Source: Halanaerobiales bacterium
Lineage (GTDB): Bacteria > Bacillota > Halanaerobiia > Halanaerobiales > M55B127
Reading direction: 5' to 3'
NCBI GenBank assembly: GCA_018334565.1
Contig: JAGXLU010000010.1
Location: 1 to 57,798 of the forward strand
DNA length: 57,798 nucleotides
A program made the translations under genes and the position numbers. Shown here one piece after another: positions 47,890 to 57,798 of the stretch (the first letter of the stretch is position 1; each line of letters begins with the position of its first letter). The notes beneath the pieces are model-generated. The model was not told the origin of the DNA and made no database searches. It saw only the letters and a list, made by a program, of their open reading frames with translations.

Positions 47890-48840
47890 TTAGCTTGCTA
47901 TTATATCTTTATTTTTTGCTGTAGAAGAAACTGCTTGTTCCCTACCTATAATCCCTGTTGGCCTCCAGCGTAATAGTGATATAATAACAATACCAACAAC
48001 AAGTGTTCTTATATGCGGAATTTTAGCAGAACTAATAGGTAGATAACCAGCTACCATTTCACTCACACTCCATGCGCCCCAGATAACAAAAGCTCCAACA
48101 ATAGAACCCTTATTATTACCTGAACCTCCAGCAACAACCATTAATAATGGCAAGAAACACATCATAATATCTGTATAGGACATAGGGTTTATATAACCCT
48201 GATAATGAGCAAACATTGCTCCTCCAATTCCAATTATCATTGAGCCCAGTACGAGTGATTGAAAACGATAGGAAAAAACTTTTTTACCCAGCATCTCAGT
48301 AAGCTTTTCATCTTCTTTTATGGCCATCTGAATTCTTCCCCAGGGAGATTTAACTACTCTTTCCAGTAGATAAAAAATTAGGAGCATAATCAAAAATGCC
48401 AAAATTCCATAAACCCAGTTTGAAAGATCATTACCTACAAAACCTGATAAGGGTTTATGTATTCCCCCGATACCCCAGACACCATTACTCAGCCATTGTT
48501 CATTTTTAAGTATTATCTGAATTGTCATACCTAAGCCAAGTGTTGAAATAGCAAAAAATCCAAATTCCAGATGTAATGTAGCCATTCCTATCAAGCCACC
48601 AAGTAATCCAGATACCATAGCAGCTCCAACCAATCCTATAATAAATGGCAAACCATAACCGCCTAATCTACCTCCTGCTGTAGCTCCTGTTAATATTACA
48701 GAAGTATAACCACCTGCTGCTGCCAGCCCAAAAACAGATAGATTAAATAATCCCGTATAACCCCACTGTAAATTATAGCCTAAAGTTATTATCGCATAAA
48801 CAGATCCCATACATAATAGGGCTGCAATATAAGCAATCAT
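47890..48840 (-). CDS. ABC transporter permease, LivM-type (operon 2)
   Basis: A permease of about 316 residues, last gene of operon 2. It begins IAYIAALLCMGSVYAIITLGYNLQWGYTGLFNLS, the typical LivM start, and has the coupling loop GRIQMAIKEDEKLTEMLGKKVFSYRFQSLV. The end is RWRPTGIIG. The ATG at 48840 is chosen for GGAGG 6 nt upstream; the longer frame to 48885 would overlap the preceding permease gene. Confidence 0.9.
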   Translation of the reverse strand: MIAYIAALLCMGSVYAIITLGYNLQWGYTGLFNLSVFGLAAAGGYTSVILTGATAGGRLGGYGLPFIIGLVGAAMVSGLLGGLIGMATLHLEFGFFAISTLGLGMTIQIILKNEQWLSNGVWGIGGIHKPLSGFVGNDLSNWVYGILAFLIMLLIFYLLERVVKSPWGRIQMAIKEDEKLTEMLGKKVFSYRFQSLVLGSMIIGIGGAMFAHYQGYINPMSYTDIMMCFLPLLMVVAGGSGNNKGSIVGAFVIWGAWSVSEMVAGYLPISSAKIPHIRTLVVGIVIISLLRWRPTGIIGREQAVSSTAKNKDIIAS

Positions 48841-48850
48841 TTTATACCTC

Positions 48851-49786
48851 CTATCTTTCCAGGAAGGTACCCTGGAAAATACCATGTGGTTTAGTAGTCA
48901 ATATTACGATCAAGAGTAGAAAAGCAAGTACCTGCTTATATCCACTCATTTCAATGGGAATACCAGTTGAATCAAATATTACCTGTAAAATTTCTGAGCC
49001 AAACTCCTGTGTAATACCAATAATTAAACCAGCTCCAAGTGTTCCTAGTATAGCTCCATCACCACCACAAACTACAGCAAAAAACATAGCCATTAATAAT
49101 GTGAAACCCATTATTGGCCTTAACTGTATTGCGAGACCATAAAACACACCGGCAGTAGCTGTTAAAACTCCAGCAATTATAGTAACTGTAGTATGAACAT
49201 GCTTGTTTTTTATACCTGAAATTTCTGCTAACCGCGAATCATTTGCAGTAGCTAACATAGCTTTGCCCAGTTTTGTATAATATTGAAAATAATAAACTAT
49301 ACCCACAATAATTAATGTTGCTAATACAACAAATATCTCATCAGGGCTAATATTTATACCACCGGCTAAGTGATATGTTTTTCTAACTCCCGAAATATAA
49401 TTTTTTAATTGTGGACCCCATATTAAATATATCAAACTTCTTAATACAAAAAGCATACCAAATGCAGTTAAATAAAAAAACATAAAAGGAGAATTTCTTT
49501 TCCTTAGTGGCTGGTATAAAAACTTGTCTACTGCTGTCATGATTATTGCAAGTACAATCATTGACAAAATAAGTGCCAATATTAAACCTGGACCAAAACT
49601 TACTACAGGAAAAGAACCCATTGGTATTATACTTAAAAAAGCAAATGCTAAATACGCTCCCAGCGTAAAAAATGTTCCTCCTGTAAAATTAAAATAATTT
49701 TGTATAAGCAAAATATATGATATTCCCAGGCCACCGAGAGTAATTATACTTCCTAGAATAATTCCATTAACAATACTTCCTAGCAT
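48851..49786 (-). CDS. ABC transporter permease, LivH-type (operon 2)
   Basis: A 311-residue permease: GSIVNGIILGSIITLGGLGISYIL at the start, the coupling loop ATANDSRLAEISGIKNKHVHTTVTIIAGVLTATAGVFYG and the end TKPHGIFQ all match LivH. The ATG has GGAGG 9 nt upstream. It lies between the LivF-type and LivM-type genes with short gaps. Confidence 0.9.
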   Translation of the reverse strand: MLGSIVNGIILGSIITLGGLGISYILLIQNYFNFTGGTFFTLGAYLAFAFLSIIPMGSFPVVSFGPGLILALILSMIVLAIIMTAVDKFLYQPLRKRNSPFMFFYLTAFGMLFVLRSLIYLIWGPQLKNYISGVRKTYHLAGGINISPDEIFVVLATLIIVGIVYYFQYYTKLGKAMLATANDSRLAEISGIKNKHVHTTVTIIAGVLTATAGVFYGLAIQLRPIMGFTLLMAMFFAVVCGGDGAILGTLGAGLIIGITQEFGSEILQVIFDSTGIPIEMSGYKQVLAFLLLIVILTTKPHGIFQGTFLER

Positions 49787-49803
49787 ATTTAAATACCTCC
49801 TTT

Positions 49804-50520
49804 TTAACCCCCAAAATATAGATTCATTACTTGGTCATTATCTAATAATGTATCTGTAGGTGCTTCAAAAATTATTTCCCCACTTCTTAATAAATAACCT
49901 CTATCAGCTGCAGGAATAGCCTGTTCAGTCTGAGCAACAAGCAATATAGTCATATCTTCTTCTTCCTGCAATCTCACAATTGAATCTAATACATCAGTTA
50001 CGAGATTAGGCTGTAATCCAGATGTTGGCTCATCCAATATTAGTAAAGATGGATCAATCATAATTCCTCTGCTTATTGCCAGCATCTGTCTTTGACCTCC
50101 TGATAAATTACCTGATGTCTGTTTTAACCTTTCTTTTAAAATTGGAAATAAGTCAAAAATCATATCCAGTCTTTCCTGAATATCTCCCTCATATGTATAA
50201 GCACCCATCTCTAAATTATCCATGACTGACATATCTGTAAATATATTACCTTCCTGAGGGACATATGATATACCCTTTGTTAATATATCAGAAGGATCCA
50301 TACCGGTAATATTTTCACCATTAAACATCACTTTACCCTTTTTGGGTTTTAATACACCATCAATAGTCCTCATCAAAGTCGTTTTACCGGCACCATTAGG
50401 GCCAATAACAACAACAAATTCTCCTTTATTAACTTCAATTGAAGCATCAAACAATACATCTACAGGGCCATAACCTGCAGTTACATCTTTGACTTCTAAT
50501 ATTTTCTCTCCTTTATTCAT
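49804..50520 (-). CDS. ABC transporter ATPase, LivF-type (operon 2)
   Basis: A 238-residue ATPase with canonical motifs: Walker A GPNGAGKTT, Q-loop VPQEGNIFTDMSV, signature LSGGQRQM, Walker B LLILDEPTSGLQP. The order after LivG and the length support LivF. GGAG lies 9 nt upstream of the ATG. Confidence 0.92.
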   Translation of the reverse strand: MNKGEKILEVKDVTAGYGPVDVLFDASIEVNKGEFVVVIGPNGAGKTTLMRTIDGVLKPKKGKVMFNGENITGMDPSDILTKGISYVPQEGNIFTDMSVMDNLEMGAYTYEGDIQERLDMIFDLFPILKERLKQTSGNLSGGQRQMLAISRGIMIDPSLLILDEPTSGLQPNLVTDVLDSIVRLQEEEDMTILLVAQTEQAIPAADRGYLLRSGEIIFEAPTDTLLDNDQVMNLYFGG

Positions 50521-50545
50521 AATATATCACTCCAGGTAAAATTAT

Positions 50546-51319
50546 TTATTCCCCAAGATAAGCTTTGATAACTCTTTCATCATTTTGAATTTCTTCTGCA
50601 TTGCCTTCTGTTAATTTAGTTCCATTAACGAGTACCAATATTGGATCACATAGGTTCATAATAACCGCCATGTCATGTTCAACAACTAAGAATGTAATAT
50701 TTTTCTCCTCGTTTAGTTCTCTTACTCTATCGTTTACTTTCTTCTGCATTCCCGGAGGAACACCCGCACCTGGTTCATCAAGTAAAACTAATTCTGGTTC
50801 TACCATCATCATTCTACCTAGTTCCAATAACTTTCTTTCTCCACCTGGAAGGTTACCGGCATATTCGTCAGCTTTGTCTTCCATATCAAGAAATCCCAGT
50901 ATTTCCATAGCTTTTTCTTTATATCCATCTTCTTCCTTTCTTACACCACTTTTATTAAACCAGTTGTTAAATATATTTTCACCAAGTTGATTTACAGGTG
51001 CAATTAATAAGTTTTCCAGTACGGTTATTTTAGCCAGATCTCTTGTTATCTGAAATGAACGATATATATTTTTTCTTAACATTTGATGTGGTGCATTACC
51101 TGGTTGAAGTTTTTCTCCTTTAAAAAAAATTTCACCTGAACTTAAAGGATAAAAGCCTGTAATTAAATTAAATATAGTTGTTTTACCAGCCCCATTTGGC
51201 CCTATTAAACCAGTGATAGTACCTTTCTCTATCTCAATATTTGCATCCTGTACAGCATGTATACCACCAAAATGCTTATTTACATTAACTAATTCTAATA
51301 TAGTACTCAATTTTTTCAC
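50546..51319 (-). CDS. ABC transporter ATPase, LivG-type (operon 2)
   Basis: A 257-residue LivG-type ATPase with Walker A GPNGAGKTT, the LivG element YRSFQITRDLAKITVLENLLI, signature LPGGERK and Walker B LVLLDEPGAGV. Unlike its operon 1 counterpart the signature is normal. The start is either GTG at 51319 or, three codons in, TTG at 51310, which is better placed behind GGGGTG. It follows the binding-protein gene after an internal hairpin. Confidence 0.9.
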   Translation of the reverse strand: MKKLSTILELVNVNKHFGGIHAVQDANIEIEKGTITGLIGPNGAGKTTIFNLITGFYPLSSGEIFFKGEKLQPGNAPHQMLRKNIYRSFQITRDLAKITVLENLLIAPVNQLGENIFNNWFNKSGVRKEEDGYKEKAMEILGFLDMEDKADEYAGNLPGGERKLLELGRMMMVEPELVLLDEPGAGVPPGMQKKVNDRVRELNEEKNITFLVVEHDMAVIMNLCDPILVLVNGTKLTEGNAEEIQNDERVIKAYLGE

Positions 51320-51340
51320 CCCATCTCTATTGTCTTGCTT

Positions 51341-51369
51341 TTTAAAAAAAAGGGGGGGTAACCCCCCTT
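51341..51369 (-). terminator. Internal terminator/attenuator between binding protein and ATPase genes
   Basis: AAGGGGGG pairs with CCCCCCTT (51350-51357 with 51362-51369), followed on the minus strand by eight T residues, 10 nt after the stop of the binding-protein gene. Partial read-through would give more binding protein than membrane components. Confidence 0.85.
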
Positions 51370-51378
51370 ATCTTCTTA

Positions 51379-52665
51379 TTATTCTGCCTGGTATTCCGGC
51401 GGCATTAAGTCCCTTGGTACTGGATCTGGTATTATATTTTCTATAGTAATAATTTCACCATCTTCTATTGTCCATGTCTGAATTGCAGACATTGCGTCTC
51501 CATATTTATCATATTCTACATTACCACTGGCGCCAATGTAATTTATTTCTTTACCTTCTTCTAATAAGGCAAATGCCTTCTTGAATCCTTCTACAGTAGC
51601 ATAGATCTTTTCTCCTGGTTCTGAAGTGACAGCTCTAATATTATCTCTCACATCTTGACCTGTAACTTCACCGGGTGCTTTGCCTGATCTAGCAATAGCT
51701 AAAACAACTGATACTAAACCATCAAAACCAGGTGCCATATATGGTTTAGGAGGATATTCACCATATTTTTTATTGTATCCTTCCATAAAACTATCTTTTG
51801 ATGCTCCAGGCCATCTACCTTGAGTAGACCCCAGAACAATACCTTCCATATATTCAGCACCTAACGAATCTATCAATTCCGGCACCTTCTGGTCAGGACT
51901 GCCATACCATGGTATATCATCCCAGCCATTAGCATAAATTTCTTTATGCATAACTGTAGCATCTTCAGGATAAGCAATTATAAGGGTAGCATCAATATCT
52001 CCATTCTGATATGTTCTTCTAATCTCTGAAGAATAACTTGATTTACCAATTTCAAAAGGAACTTTAGCTACTACCTTTCCATCATGTATTTTAGAGAAGG
52101 TTACAGCAGCTGCATCTGCTATCCCCTTGCCATAGGCATTATTCACATAAACAATACCTATTTCTTTATGACCATCATTGTACATGGCCTCTCCCAATAC
52201 ACGTCCATTATAAAGATCATGTGCAGAAGCACGGAAAAAATAATCATTATCTTTTACAACGGAGATCATTGGTGAAGTACCAAGTGTTACAAATACTGCT
52301 TCATTAGGAATAGTAACACCCTGTGAAACACCCATGGCCACACCACTTGAATAACAACCAACTATAGCAGGTACTTTGTTTACATTAATAAGTTTACGGG
52401 CTGCATCAACCCCTTTTGTTGGTTCACTTCCTGTATCCCTATTAATAATTTTTAATTCATTACCATGTATTCCTCCAGCCTCATTTACATAATCTTGAAC
52501 TAAAGTGCAGGCATTAGTAATGGCTTCACCAAAAGCTGCTGCTGTACCTGTCATAGGCCATATAGTCCCTACCTTATAATCCTCTGCTTTAGCAAGTCCT
52601 GTAAAAGAAACAACAAAAACAAAGATCAAAATGGTTATACATGTTATAATTTTCTTTTTCTGCAT
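51379..52665 (-). CDS. Branched-chain amino acid/amide-type ABC transporter, substrate-binding protein (operon 2)
   Basis: A 428-residue binding protein. The signal peptide runs to FTGLAKAED (about residue 27). The mature part begins YKVGTIWPMTGTAAAFGEAITNACTLVQDYVNEAGGIHG, the family pattern, with later RASAHDLYNGRVLGEA. It has no lipobox. It resembles urea/short-chain amide binding proteins as much as LivK, so the ligand is left open. GGAGG lies 5 nt before the ATG. It leads operon 2, whereas the counterpart in operon 1 is last. Confidence 0.88.
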   Translation of the reverse strand: MQKKKIITCITILIFVFVVSFTGLAKAEDYKVGTIWPMTGTAAAFGEAITNACTLVQDYVNEAGGIHGNELKIINRDTGSEPTKGVDAARKLINVNKVPAIVGCYSSGVAMGVSQGVTIPNEAVFVTLGTSPMISVVKDNDYFFRASAHDLYNGRVLGEAMYNDGHKEIGIVYVNNAYGKGIADAAAVTFSKIHDGKVVAKVPFEIGKSSYSSEIRRTYQNGDIDATLIIAYPEDATVMHKEIYANGWDDIPWYGSPDQKVPELIDSLGAEYMEGIVLGSTQGRWPGASKDSFMEGYNKKYGEYPPKPYMAPGFDGLVSVVLAIARSGKAPGEVTGQDVRDNIRAVTSEPGEKIYATVEGFKKAFALLEEGKEINYIGASGNVEYDKYGDAMSAIQTWTIEDGEIITIENIIPDPVPRDLMPPEYQAE

Positions 52666-53199: not shown

Positions 53200-53759
53200 T
53201 AAAGGCCTAGTTAAGGTCTGGTAATGTTTATACCTTAAGAAAATCTGTTAGATTTATCGGTATAATGTTTAAAGAATATAAAAAATGATTAGAAAGATAG
53301 AAAGATACCTGTTTATCTTAAGAAGTGATAGTGGCTTTGCTAAATCTGGTATTTATAAAATTTCAGAGAAAAATAATATTCTCTATACCACTAGATTAAA
53401 GGCAAATGCAATATTATATGATTTAGTTAAACTATTAGTAAAAAAATTAATTCAAAAAAATTATGATTACTTTTATGAAAAACAAGTTGTTTATAAACGA
53501 TTCAATTATAAAACTGTTAATTAGAATAAAGAACGAAAAGCTATTTAAAAAAGTTGAAAAACCAAAAGGAGAACTAACTTATAATTTAAATAACTGGATG
53601 AGGTATAATTATTTACTAGAAAATAATAAATCAGATATGATGAGAATTGTTAGAACAAAGTTTATAAAAATAACAGAAAGAATATTAAAAACGGGTAGAT
53701 ATTTTTATTACAAACTTACGAGCAGCTGTCCTAACAAGAAGTTGTTTTTAAAGTTTTAG
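53200..53759 (+). pseudogene. Decayed IS1380-family transposase
   Basis: Three pieces in two frames read as the C-terminal half of a DDE transposase. Piece one (53200-53285) has KA-stop-LRSGNVYT, where the stop replaces Tyr. Piece two (53285-53524) has RSDSGFAKSGIYKI and RLKANAILYDLVKLL, the hallmark of the IS1380 group. Piece three (53540-53759) has KKVEKPKGEL, then after an internal deletion YNLNNWMRYN, and TGRYFYYKLTSSCPNKK. The N-terminal half, the element ends and the catalytic N-terminal Asp are absent. No terminal repeats were found. Confidence 0.7.
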
Positions 53760-54489: not shown

Positions 54490-55668
54490 TCATCCTGATA
54501 AGTAATTTATTGCACTTCTAACATGCATCTCAACACCATAAGCTAATGTGTCTTCATCTATATTGAAACGGGGATGGTGATGAGCAAAATCTGTACCTTT
54601 TTCTTTATTCCCAGTTCCTATAAAATAAAATGTTGATGGAACTTCATCTGAAAACTCACCAAAATCTTCTCCTGCTAAATTAGTATAATCGACTATATTA
54701 CTTATATCACCAAATGTTTCTTCAGCACTTTGATAAGCTAATCTCACCATTTCTTTATTATTATAAACTGGAGGACTTCCTACTATATAATCGATTTCAT
54801 ATTGAGCTCGGTGTAATTTGCATTCACTCTCTATGATCCGTTCAAATCTTTCTCTAAGCCTTTCTTCGCCCCGCGAATCATCTCTGTATAGATATCTAAT
54901 GGTCCCCCTCAATTCAACTTCTTCTGGTATAATATTTGCAGCAGTTCCTCCATTGATCTGACCGAACATTATCAAAGTGGGCTTTAGCGGGTCTATTTCT
55001 CTAGTCTGCACTGCCTGAACTGATTGAATTATATTACTTGCTGTTAAAATAGGGTCAATCGCAGTATGTGGCGCTGAGGTATGGCCCCCCTGTCCGATAA
55101 TTTTAACTTCAAATTCATATAAGCCACCCATTACTACACCTTCTGAAATGGCTACTTTCCCACTTTCAATAGGTGTCCAGAGGTGAATTCCAAAGGCACC
55201 ATCAACCTTGGGATTATCCAATACTCCTTCATCGATCATCATTCGCGCTCCCGCAGTCTCTTCATTCGGCTGAAATACAAATTTAATATTCCCATGAATT
55301 TTATCTTTATATCGTGACAGTATTTTTGCTGCAACTAATAACATAGCTGTGTGCCCATCATGGCCGCAAGCATGCATCACACCCTTATTTACTGATTTAT
55401 ATTTTATATCATTTTGTTCTGTTATGGGAAGGGCATCCATATCTGCCCTGAGCATCAAGGTTTTTTTGGGCTTATCACCTCTTAACAGTCCAATCACTCC
55501 AGTTTTGGCAACGTTTTCAGTTACTTCAAGTCCTAAATCTCTTAAATAATCAGCAACAATTTTAGCAGTTCTTTTTTCTTCAAACCCTAGCTCAGGGTGT
55601 TTATGAAAATCTCTTCTCAATCTGATTAGTTCATCATTTAATTCTTTTACCTTCTTTTTAATATCCAT
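54490..55668 (-). CDS. M20-family amidohydrolase (N-acyl amino acid/hippurate hydrolase type)
   Basis: A 392-residue zinc peptidase-like hydrolase. Motifs: RRDFHKHPELGFEE at the N-terminus, RADMDALPITE, MHACGHDGHTAML with metal ligands, VFQPNEET (the family usually has QPAEE), GIHLWTP, GQGGHTSAPH and NLAGEDFGEF. It removes acyl groups from amino acids or related amines in the cytoplasm. It follows a truncated TRAP transporter gene by 15 nt, with GGGGG before its ATG. Its neighbours suggest a past role beside an ectoine catabolic pathway, perhaps deacetylating an intermediate (inference). Confidence 0.9.
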   Translation of the reverse strand: MDIKKKVKELNDELIRLRRDFHKHPELGFEEKRTAKIVADYLRDLGLEVTENVAKTGVIGLLRGDKPKKTLMLRADMDALPITEQNDIKYKSVNKGVMHACGHDGHTAMLLVAAKILSRYKDKIHGNIKFVFQPNEETAGARMMIDEGVLDNPKVDGAFGIHLWTPIESGKVAISEGVVMGGLYEFEVKIIGQGGHTSAPHTAIDPILTASNIIQSVQAVQTREIDPLKPTLIMFGQINGGTAANIIPEEVELRGTIRYLYRDDSRGEERLRERFERIIESECKLHRAQYEIDYIVGSPPVYNNKEMVRLAYQSAEETFGDISNIVDYTNLAGEDFGEFSDEVPSTFYFIGTGNKEKGTDFAHHHPRFNIDEDTLAYGVEMHVRSAINYLSG

Positions 55669-55683
55669 TTACTTATCCCCCTA

Positions 55684-56151
55684 TTAATAACCATAAGCTA
55701 TATATCTCAAGAATAACGTTACCTGTAGGAAAAATATAAAAAGAGCTGAAAATACTAAAAGCATGGCAATAAAAACAGGTGTCTTTTTAATGACTTGAAA
55801 GTATGATCTCTTAATTATCCCAATCGCTGTAAATATATCGCAACCAAAAGGTGGAGTTGCTGAACCGGTTACTGCTTGTAAAGTTACCATTGTACCAACT
55901 AAAACAGGATCAATACCCAGCATTATAACAACTGGCTTAAATATCGGAGTTAAAATCATAATAACTACAATAGGATCTACAAACATGCAACCTATAAAGA
56001 ATGCTCCCGCAATAACAAACAATACCCACACCTGAGTGGGATTAGAACCTATTATCGCAGTCAAAAATTTACTTGGTATTCTAAACTGTGAAAACACACC
56101 AACAGTAACCAGATCTGTTAATAAGTCTATCTCCTTTAAATTATTGGACAT
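55684..56151 (-). pseudogene. TRAP transporter large permease (DctM-type), C-terminal fragment
   Basis: A 155-codon frame encoding only the last third of a DctM/UehC-type protein. GVFSQFRIPSKFLTAII, then CMFVDPIVVIMILTPIFKPVVIMLGIDPVLVGTMVTL, TGSATPPFGCDIFTAIGI and a final hydrophobic helix correspond to the C-terminal helices of TRAP large subunits. A full-length one has about 430 residues. The first 15 residues do not look homologous and lie over the junction with the ectoine hydrolase relic. No DctP or DctQ is present. It probably arose by deletion between doeA and the TRAP genes. Confidence 0.8.
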
Positions 56152-56448
56152 ATAATCCGTGGGTGCTTTTCTAAAGACTGTACATATAAGTCTTGATACT
56201 CCATTATATTTTCTTTATTCAGCCCGGTTCTAATTTTTGCCCCATTACTATCTTGTTCCCTGCCAAACCAAATAGGTTTTCCTCTATCTATGAAAATTAG
56301 TACCTCTTGATGAGCATAAAATGACCAACCATCATATCCTTAAACATAATTCATGTTTGACAGGTGAGTTGCTAGCAATACTTCTAATTTATTTCCCCTC
56401 ATTTTCTCTTTTATCTATTTTTATACTCACTTTTTTTAATATATTCAT
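56136..56448 (-). pseudogene. Ectoine hydrolase (DoeA/EutD, M24 family) N-terminal relic
   Basis: Immediately after eutB (gap 14 nt), an AAGGAG site and ATG (56448) open a broken frame. After one frameshift it reads MRGNKLEVLLATHLSNMNYV, a TAA stop at 56340-56342, then GYDGWSFYAHQEVLIFI, KPIWFGREQDSNGAK, and YQDLYVQSLEKHPRII. These match the N-terminal domain of ectoine hydrolases (SNMxxLTGYDGWSFY, PVWFGRxQDAxGA, DxYVQSxxRHP). The stop at Thr/TG and the frameshift make it non-functional. The catalytic M24 domain is missing, replaced by the TRAP fragment. Confidence 0.75.
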
Positions 56449-56462
56449 TTTGCTTTTTCTCC

Positions 56463-57434
56463 TTACTTTATATTCAATGTATTTAAAAACAAGTTATTGC
56501 CTACATTGCTACCAGTTGTTACAATTACAGAATTTCCTCCAATGCTTTTTATCTTTTTTGATAATAAGGCAGCAATCCCTACTACAGCAGCACCTTCTAA
56601 TACAAAATGTTCTTCTTTAAAAACATAAGACATGGCTTCTTTAATTTCTTCTTCTGATACTAATATTATCTTGTCGACGTATTTTTTTACCATATCATAA
56701 GTATACTGGTTATCAAACAAGATGCCGCCCTGTAAGCTGTCTGCAAGGCTTTCATGCTCCCCAACCCTTACTGGCTTGCCTGCTTTTATGCTTTCATACA
56801 TTGCAGCTCCTTTTTCCATGCTGATACCATAGACTTTACAATCTGGATAGATAGATTTAATTACAAAAGCGATTCCGCTAATAAGTCCACCACCACTTAA
56901 AGGAACTAGAATACTATCCAGTTTTGGTATTTTTTCTAAGATTTCCAATCCAATAGTCGCTTGTCCACAGATAATATATTTATTATCAAAGGGAGGTACA
57001 ATAGCTCTTTTTTCAGTTTTAGATAACTCTACTGCTTTTACTTGCGCTTCATCCTGGCTGTTTCCATGTATAACAACTTTACCATATGAATTTTTAATCC
57101 CTGCAATCTTATTTTTAGGGACATTTTTTGAAATACAAATCTTTGCATCAGTATTTAATTTTTTTGCAACATAAGCAGTTGCCCTACCGTGATTTCCCGT
57201 TGAATAAGTCGTTAATCCATTATTTAATTCTTCACTTCTTAAGTGTCTGGCAAAATTTGTAGCACCTCTTACTTTAAAACTTCTGGTATCTTGTAAAAAC
57301 TCTAATTTAAAATATATTTGAGATTTATTTTTTTTTGATAGGTCCTGTGCTTTATACAAAGGGGTTTTCCGTACTATATCATAAACTAATTTTTTTGCTT
57401 CATACACATCTCCCATAGTAATATATTGCTTCAA
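56463..57434 (-). CDS. eutB: EutB-like PLP enzyme of ectoine/hydroxyectoine utilisation (threonine dehydratase family)
   Basis: A 323-residue fold type II PLP enzyme. SFKVRGATN carries the Schiff-base Lys, STGNHGRATAY the phosphate/cofactor loop and PLSGGGLISGIA the second cofactor loop. Features specific to ectoine-locus EutB rather than threonine dehydratase in general are SQDEAQVKAVELS, VPPFDNKYIICGQATIGLE, ISMEKGAAMYESI and ADSLQGGILFDN. The start is TTG with GGAGG 8 nt upstream. It is followed in the canonical order by a doeA/eutD relic and preceded by a broken RidA gene, which fits the imine product of such dehydratases. The name refers to ectoine, not ethanolamine, utilisation. It looks intact. 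Confidence 0.85.
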   Translation of the reverse strand: MKQYITMGDVYEAKKLVYDIVRKTPLYKAQDLSKKNKSQIYFKLEFLQDTRSFKVRGATNFARHLRSEELNNGLTTYSTGNHGRATAYVAKKLNTDAKICISKNVPKNKIAGIKNSYGKVVIHGNSQDEAQVKAVELSKTEKRAIVPPFDNKYIICGQATIGLEILEKIPKLDSILVPLSGGGLISGIAFVIKSIYPDCKVYGISMEKGAAMYESIKAGKPVRVGEHESLADSLQGGILFDNQYTYDMVKKYVDKIILVSEEEIKEAMSYVFKEEHFVLEGAAVVGIAALLSKKIKSIGGNSVIVTTGSNVGNNLFLNTLNIK

Positions 57435-57663: not shown

Positions 57664-57675
57664 ATTTTCTATATC

Positions 57676-57798
57676 TCAACTTTCGCAGTTAAGAATCTTT
57701 AATGGTTCCTTGATATAATTGGGAAGAAGTCCAAAAAAATAGTCTAATAGTTTATTTATCTTCTCTTCAGTAATTTTCAAACAATCATGAAGTGACTG
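57676..57798 (-). CDS. Unidentified frame running off the right edge
   Basis: A 40-codon frame open to the window edge and ending with TGA at 57676. It contains SLHDCLKITEEKINKLLDYF and FGLLPNYIKEPLKILNCES. It is in the same frame as the first RidA piece and ends directly ahead of it, so it may be the C-terminus of another gene, or part of the same wreck. I do not recognise the family. Confidence 0.3.
   Translation of the reverse strand, partial: QSLHDCLKITEEKINKLLDYFFGLLPNYIKEPLKILNCES

Follow-up and report, generated by a model that had tools for sequence, protein, structure and literature searches.

Genes and relics at the contig end

The window analysed in this work is the full length (57,798 bp) of contig C62 of the genome G000, a draft assembly (2.16 Mb, 94 contigs, 97% complete) whose nearest named relatives are MAGs labelled Halanaerobiales bacterium (JAIPEX01, Tobar18m; CAJXKY01). 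Read from the contig end in the direction of minus-strand transcription, an insert end (57798-57675) is followed by a ridA 3' relic, eutB, a doeA relic, a dctM tail and an M20 gene:

57675..57798, minus strand: one end of a transposon-like insert, bearing a terminal inverted repeat and reaching the contig end; 83% copy elsewhere
57665..57674, minus strand: ATATAGAAAA, target site duplicated by the insertion into ridA; second copy on contig C50
57464..57674, minus strand: ridA 3' relic, frameshifted (tblastn E 2.6e-13 to G002 RidA)
56463..57434, minus strand: EutB-like PLP-dependent dehydratase, intact, 323 aa, TTG start (NF005680, TIGR02991, tree, invariant columns)
56132..56451, minus strand: N-terminal relic of doeA-2 (ectoine hydrolase) with a TAA stop and three indels (TIGR02993, alignment to G002 DoeA-2)
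56132..56140, minus strand: TTTAAAGGA at the doeA-2/dctM deletion junction (alignment with G002)
55684..56151, minus strand: C-terminal relic of dctM (TRAP large permease) with a further internal deletion (PF06808)
54490..55668, minus strand: intact M20 amidohydrolase (M20_2), candidate N-acetyl-diaminobutyrate deacetylase (TIGR01891, 363 bits, above cut-off)

A preliminary description of this DNA had recognized a degraded ectoine/hydroxyectoine catabolic locus, and the relics of doeA and dctM beside an intact eutB bear this out. Missing from it were the ridA relic, the insert end at the contig edge, the M20 gene and a doeA paralogue on another contig.

The doeA relic matched TIGR02993 (E 2.2e-30, 106 bits) with only model positions 22-108 of 391 left, and its best solved-structure match was H. 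elongata DoeA (6twk, E 9e-21). The M24/ectoine hydrolase match that the preliminary description had proposed to look for in the relic translation was thus found. A complete catalytic M24 domain is absent, and the relic represents the second doeA copy, being 75% identical to G002 DoeA-2 (residues 16-99) versus 48% to DoeA-1. As described earlier, it is an N-terminal remnant with a preserved ribosome binding site, the RBS-like AAGGAG still standing before its ATG. The damage is slightly greater than the one stop and one frameshift reported for it: besides a TAA there are three indels, two of them (1 nt, 10 nt) close to the start and one of 1 nt close to the end. The reported fusion to the tail of a TRAP permease also held: the tail matched PF06808 (E 8e-21, profile 284-412 of 413), was assigned to the DctM family by TIGR00786 as well, and is 73% identical to G002 DctM residues 265-430. 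Since TTTAAAGGA (9 bases) is found in both doeA-2 and dctM of the intact G002 cluster, the junction was probably made by a deletion between short repeats.

The 5' part of ridA lies on another contig (G000:C50:206-400). In the alignment its reading frame is interrupted by a TAG at the identical codon in G000 and in the same-genus genome G001, so that, most simply, ridA was broken before the two parted. A degenerate, 83% identical copy of the insert end was found at G000:C84:26408-26527 (L108). From the insert ends with their inverted repeats and the duplicated ATATAGAAAA we infer that contigs C62 and C50, which the assembly leaves separate, adjoin in G000.

Intact clusters in related genomes

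The order-wide survey comprised 38 genomes of 17 genera, same-genus genomes including G001, G002, G003 and G004. An intact version of the locus, for which a search in related strains had been suggested, was found in syntenic form in G002, G003 and G004. The order in the intact same-genus clusters is panB, a protein of no known family, GDH, doeA-1, gntR, ridA, eutB, doeA-2, TRAP, M20. In G002 (L023), all of the following frames are open: EamA, PanB-type, the 316-aa protein of no known family, GDH-like, DoeA-1, GntR, RidA, EutB, AGCS symporter, M20_1, DoeA-2, DctQ, DctM, M20_2 and DctP. G004 carries two clusters of this kind. In G003 the genes run RidA-EutB-DoeA-2-DctQ-DctM-M20_2-DctP, with neither AGCS nor M20_1; the window relics lie in this order, and the eutB-doeA order noted in the preliminary description recurs there as eutB followed by doeA-2. 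In G001 the segment from mid-ridA to the dctM tail is deleted, eutB included, and a dctP relic is present. The relics in both G000 and G001 keep the order of the intact clusters. The suggestion that the locus was acquired in pieces was therefore not supported: whole clusters exist in same-genus genomes, and the relics follow the same order.

DoeA is present in 15 of the 38 genomes and in 8 of the 17 genera. EutB orthologues (57-71%) were found in G000, G002-G005, G026, G027 and G037, and every EutB-carrying genome of the order other than G000 also has an intact DoeA-2. RidA, EutB and DoeA-2 are absent from the core clusters of G028 and G030, the latter lying on a short contig; in G029, DoeA-2 is present and EutB is not. 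Outside the order, Acetomicrobium hydrogeniformans (L036) has PanB-type, the protein of no known family, GDH, EutB, TRAP and two DoeA, and Desulfobacteraceae MAGs (L030, L032) have a related cluster in part. No ectoine synthase scored above the Pfam cut-off in the 38 genomes of the order, hence the cluster fits consumption, not recycling.

The 316-aa protein occurs in clusters of three phyla (L023:6460-7410, L021:3844-4797, L036:349-1305, L032:169-1101) and had no Pfam or NCBIfam match. Its predicted structure (pLDDT 54, best matches at TM about 0.3) is only suggestive of a beta/alpha barrel.

Identity of EutB and selection on the surviving genes

The preliminary description had called the eutB-like gene intact, and it is: the 323-aa frame is open, its TTG start codon preceded by GGGGAGG. 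In the profile search EutB scored 398.6 bits on NF005680, 14 bits below the curated cut-off of 413, and 344.8 bits on TIGR02991, below the cut-off of 413.35; the best threonine/serine dehydratase model reached 267 bits at most. In the comparison of EutB and threonine dehydratase profiles that had been proposed as a check, the EutB models thus scored higher (399 and 345 vs 267). The orthologue of same-genus G002 reached 421.2 bits on NF005680, above the cut-off. The protein matches PF00291 (threonine dehydratase fold), and in the tree it fell within the EutB clade (support 100/99), together with EutBs encoded in clusters and apart from threonine dehydratases, with G003 EutB as its sister (99/92). 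Of the columns invariant in 57 other EutB proteins all 49 are kept, as are 10 of 10 EutB-specific ones. In clade membership, invariant residues and neighbourhood the window protein is like the EutB proteins of TIGR02991/NF005680, from which it differs by its sub-cut-off NF005680 score and by its lost partners. The idea of a new substrate for EutB found no support, all EutB-invariant residues being kept with no extra amino-acid change.

Because a codon-ML branch test for relaxed selection met saturated synonymous sites and gave unstable results, selection was assessed by branch dN with bootstrap in the triad G000/G002/G003, comparing the G000 branch with the mean of the other branches. The following ratios of dN were obtained: 5.0x (dctM tail), 2.9x (doeA-2 relic), 0.92x (EutB) and 0.71x (M20_2). 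The excess dN on the G000 branch was 0.085 [0.045-0.128] for the dctM tail, 0.107 [0.036-0.198] for the doeA-2 relic, -0.021 [-0.045 to 0.003] for M20_2 and -0.008 [-0.043 to 0.024] for EutB, the last interval leaving room for a brief recent unconstrained period. In simulations of a neutral EutB, the open frame was kept with P 0.042 at 0.08 substitutions/site and 0.022 at 0.10. Judged by its sequence, EutB is without visible decay.

For the G000/G001 pair, an apparent additional relaxation of the surviving genes was not taken as specific to the locus, as valS rises similarly (0.144 vs 0.037); gyrB-type genes showed no clear rise in this pair (0.047 vs 0.033).

Remaining pathway and relation to known systems

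On contig C50, G000 carries an intact DoeA-1 without stops, adjoining GDH, the protein of no known family and GntR. The claim that the pathway was lost is therefore overstated, these four genes being intact; it stands for TRAP uptake, RidA and DoeA-2. DoeA-1 matched a solved DoeA structure with E 1e-103 over residues 3-389. Its score of 445 bits against the curated DoeA cut-off of 613 weighs against the interpretation favoured below; none of the 38 genomes searched in the order passed this cut-off. The same holds for M20_2, which scored 279 bits on NF038260 (DoeB2) with a cut-off of 550; in the intact clusters read, its orthologue adjoins DoeA. A further point against is that the cluster panB is mostly missing from the G000 assembly. 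The G000 and G001 assemblies both break inside this gene (L021:4849-4974, L022:16699-16755); neither assembly contains a second panB, and G002 and G004 each carry another one elsewhere.

Uptake also counts against the favoured interpretation, no ectoine-specific system having been identified in G000, where the remaining TRAP permeases share 31-35% identity with the one that was lost. The G002 orthologue of the lost DctM shares 60% identity with a Salinivibrio TRAP permease whose gene precedes a universal stress protein gene, an arrangement like that of TeaABCD/UehABC. This likeness is only suggestive of the lost permease having been an ectoine transporter. Downstream of M20_2, where relatives carry dctP, the window has a LIV-type ABC amino-acid transporter (47890-52665), whose binding protein is not closely matched in any other same-genus genome and has its nearest relative (63%) in G028. 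It was rejected as a replacement uptake system, being confined to G000 within the genus and showing no tie to ectoine genes. No dctP relic was found between 52665 and 54490. Two overlapping small ORFs lie within an AT-rich stretch at 53285-53759; one of the ORFs, by eye, resembles a transposase C-terminus.

Gene content, order, damage and constraint make it likely, in our judgement, that the locus is part of a partly eroded and remodelled ectoine/5-hydroxyectoine catabolic cluster, which lost ridA, doeA-2 and the TRAP genes. The genus ancestor would have carried panB, the gene of no known family, GDH, doeA-1, gntR, ridA, eutB, doeA-2, dctQ, dctM, M20_2 and dctP. ridA would have died by the nonsense codon also present in G001 and then by the insertion in G000; a deletion between short repeats would have fused doeA-2 with dctM, and the genes for TRAP uptake would have been lost. 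EutB would have been kept by selection, with DoeA-1, M20_2, GDH and the regulator remaining intact.

EutB might, on the other hand, be a passenger yet to die, its frame open by luck. RidA, DoeA-2 and the TRAP genes are indeed dead, and eutB was deleted outright in the sister G001, but we regard this as unlikely, because EutB showed no dN excess, whereas its dead neighbours showed a clear one, because the probability of its being stop-free by chance is about 0.02-0.04, and because all invariant residues are kept. Retention for another job, e.g. as the only threonine/serine dehydratase of the cell, would agree with EutB being the sole member of its own family in G000 at E<=1e-20. However, G002, G003 and G004 are also without a second member despite their intact pathway, no member was found in G001 (80% complete), and the EutB-specific columns are preserved, which leaves this explanation still less probable. 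The damage could finally be an assembly or sequencing artefact, given the draft in 94 contigs and the ridA break at a contig end; this is very improbable, since the ridA stop is common to a second genome, the dead genes diverge faster, and the G001 deletion is different and larger.

In the partly eroded cluster that we favour, ectoines would enter G000 by another route. Ring hydrolysis by DoeA-1 would give N-acetyl-diaminobutyrate or the hydroxy derivative, and the M20 enzyme would strip the acetyl group, so these two enzymes could still supply the EutB substrate in G000; GDH and its neighbours would take the carbon onward. Members of the threonine dehydratase fold use beta-hydroxy amino acids as substrates, and RidA clears the enamines they release; for this reason we prefer a role in which EutB would eliminate water from the hydroxylated product (hydroxy-DABA), with RidA clearing the product. 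In R. pomeroyi, ectoine or hydroxyectoine is opened by DoeA/EutD, a deacetylase then produces DABA or its hydroxylated form, hydroxy-DABA seems to be quickly converted to DABA, and EutABC, whose activities were described as unknown, are required for hydroxyectoine (PMC8739950). As plain dehydration to a keto acid leaves this rapid conversion unexplained, the EutB product may be a different one. Retention of EutB alongside the loss of RidA, DoeA-2 and the TRAP genes narrows the necessary partners of EutB.

The proteobacterial eutABCDE/doeABCD clusters with UehABC or EhuABCD share with the Halanaerobiales cluster close DoeA/EutD and EutB homologues, a TRAP permease and an amidohydrolase. In contrast, the G002 cluster shows no EutC, no EutE/DoeB and no DoeC/DoeD-type aminotransferase/dehydrogenase pair; GDH, PanB-type proteins and the protein of no known family are found instead, and the regulator is an FCD-type GntR rather than the MocR-type EnuR. 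A 2026 study described putative ectoine clusters, tentative until tested, in Thermodesulfobacteriota (two eutD, no eutE) and Bacillota (PMC13188858). The former resemble the present cluster in having two eutD copies and no eutE, and differ from it in that the window cluster is partly dead; in DoeA-2, identity to the Desulfobacteraceae loci L030/L032 is 68%. Neither Halanaerobiales nor Synergistota is mentioned in the text of that study, which also contains no word starting with 'anaerob'. Our search of the open-access literature (titles, abstracts, term counts) brought up no account of ectoine catabolism in Halanaerobiales; the reports found on ectoine breakdown concern mainly Proteobacteria, in addition to the putative clusters that the 2026 study gives for Bacillota and other groups.

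An intact syntenic cluster in several Halanaerobiales families and two other anaerobe phyla makes anaerobic ectoine use testable in culture. As a tentative extension, which we hold possible rather than probable, Halanaerobiales, Acetomicrobium (Synergistota) and Desulfobacteraceae may use a common ectoine/hydroxyectoine route of anaerobe type, with GDH-like, PanB-type and no-known-family proteins replacing the usual aminotransferase and semialdehyde dehydrogenase steps; ridA-eutB-doeA-2 would then be a detachable hydroxyectoine module, here coming apart with EutB still needed.

A shorter cluster consisting of DoeA-1, GntR, a 399-aa ORF, M20 and TRAP was seen in three genomes of genus g9 (L124, L125, L126). 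In L126 a TAA lies within the DoeA frame, and the 399-aa ORF is, by eye, a candidate Cys/Met-type PLP enzyme.
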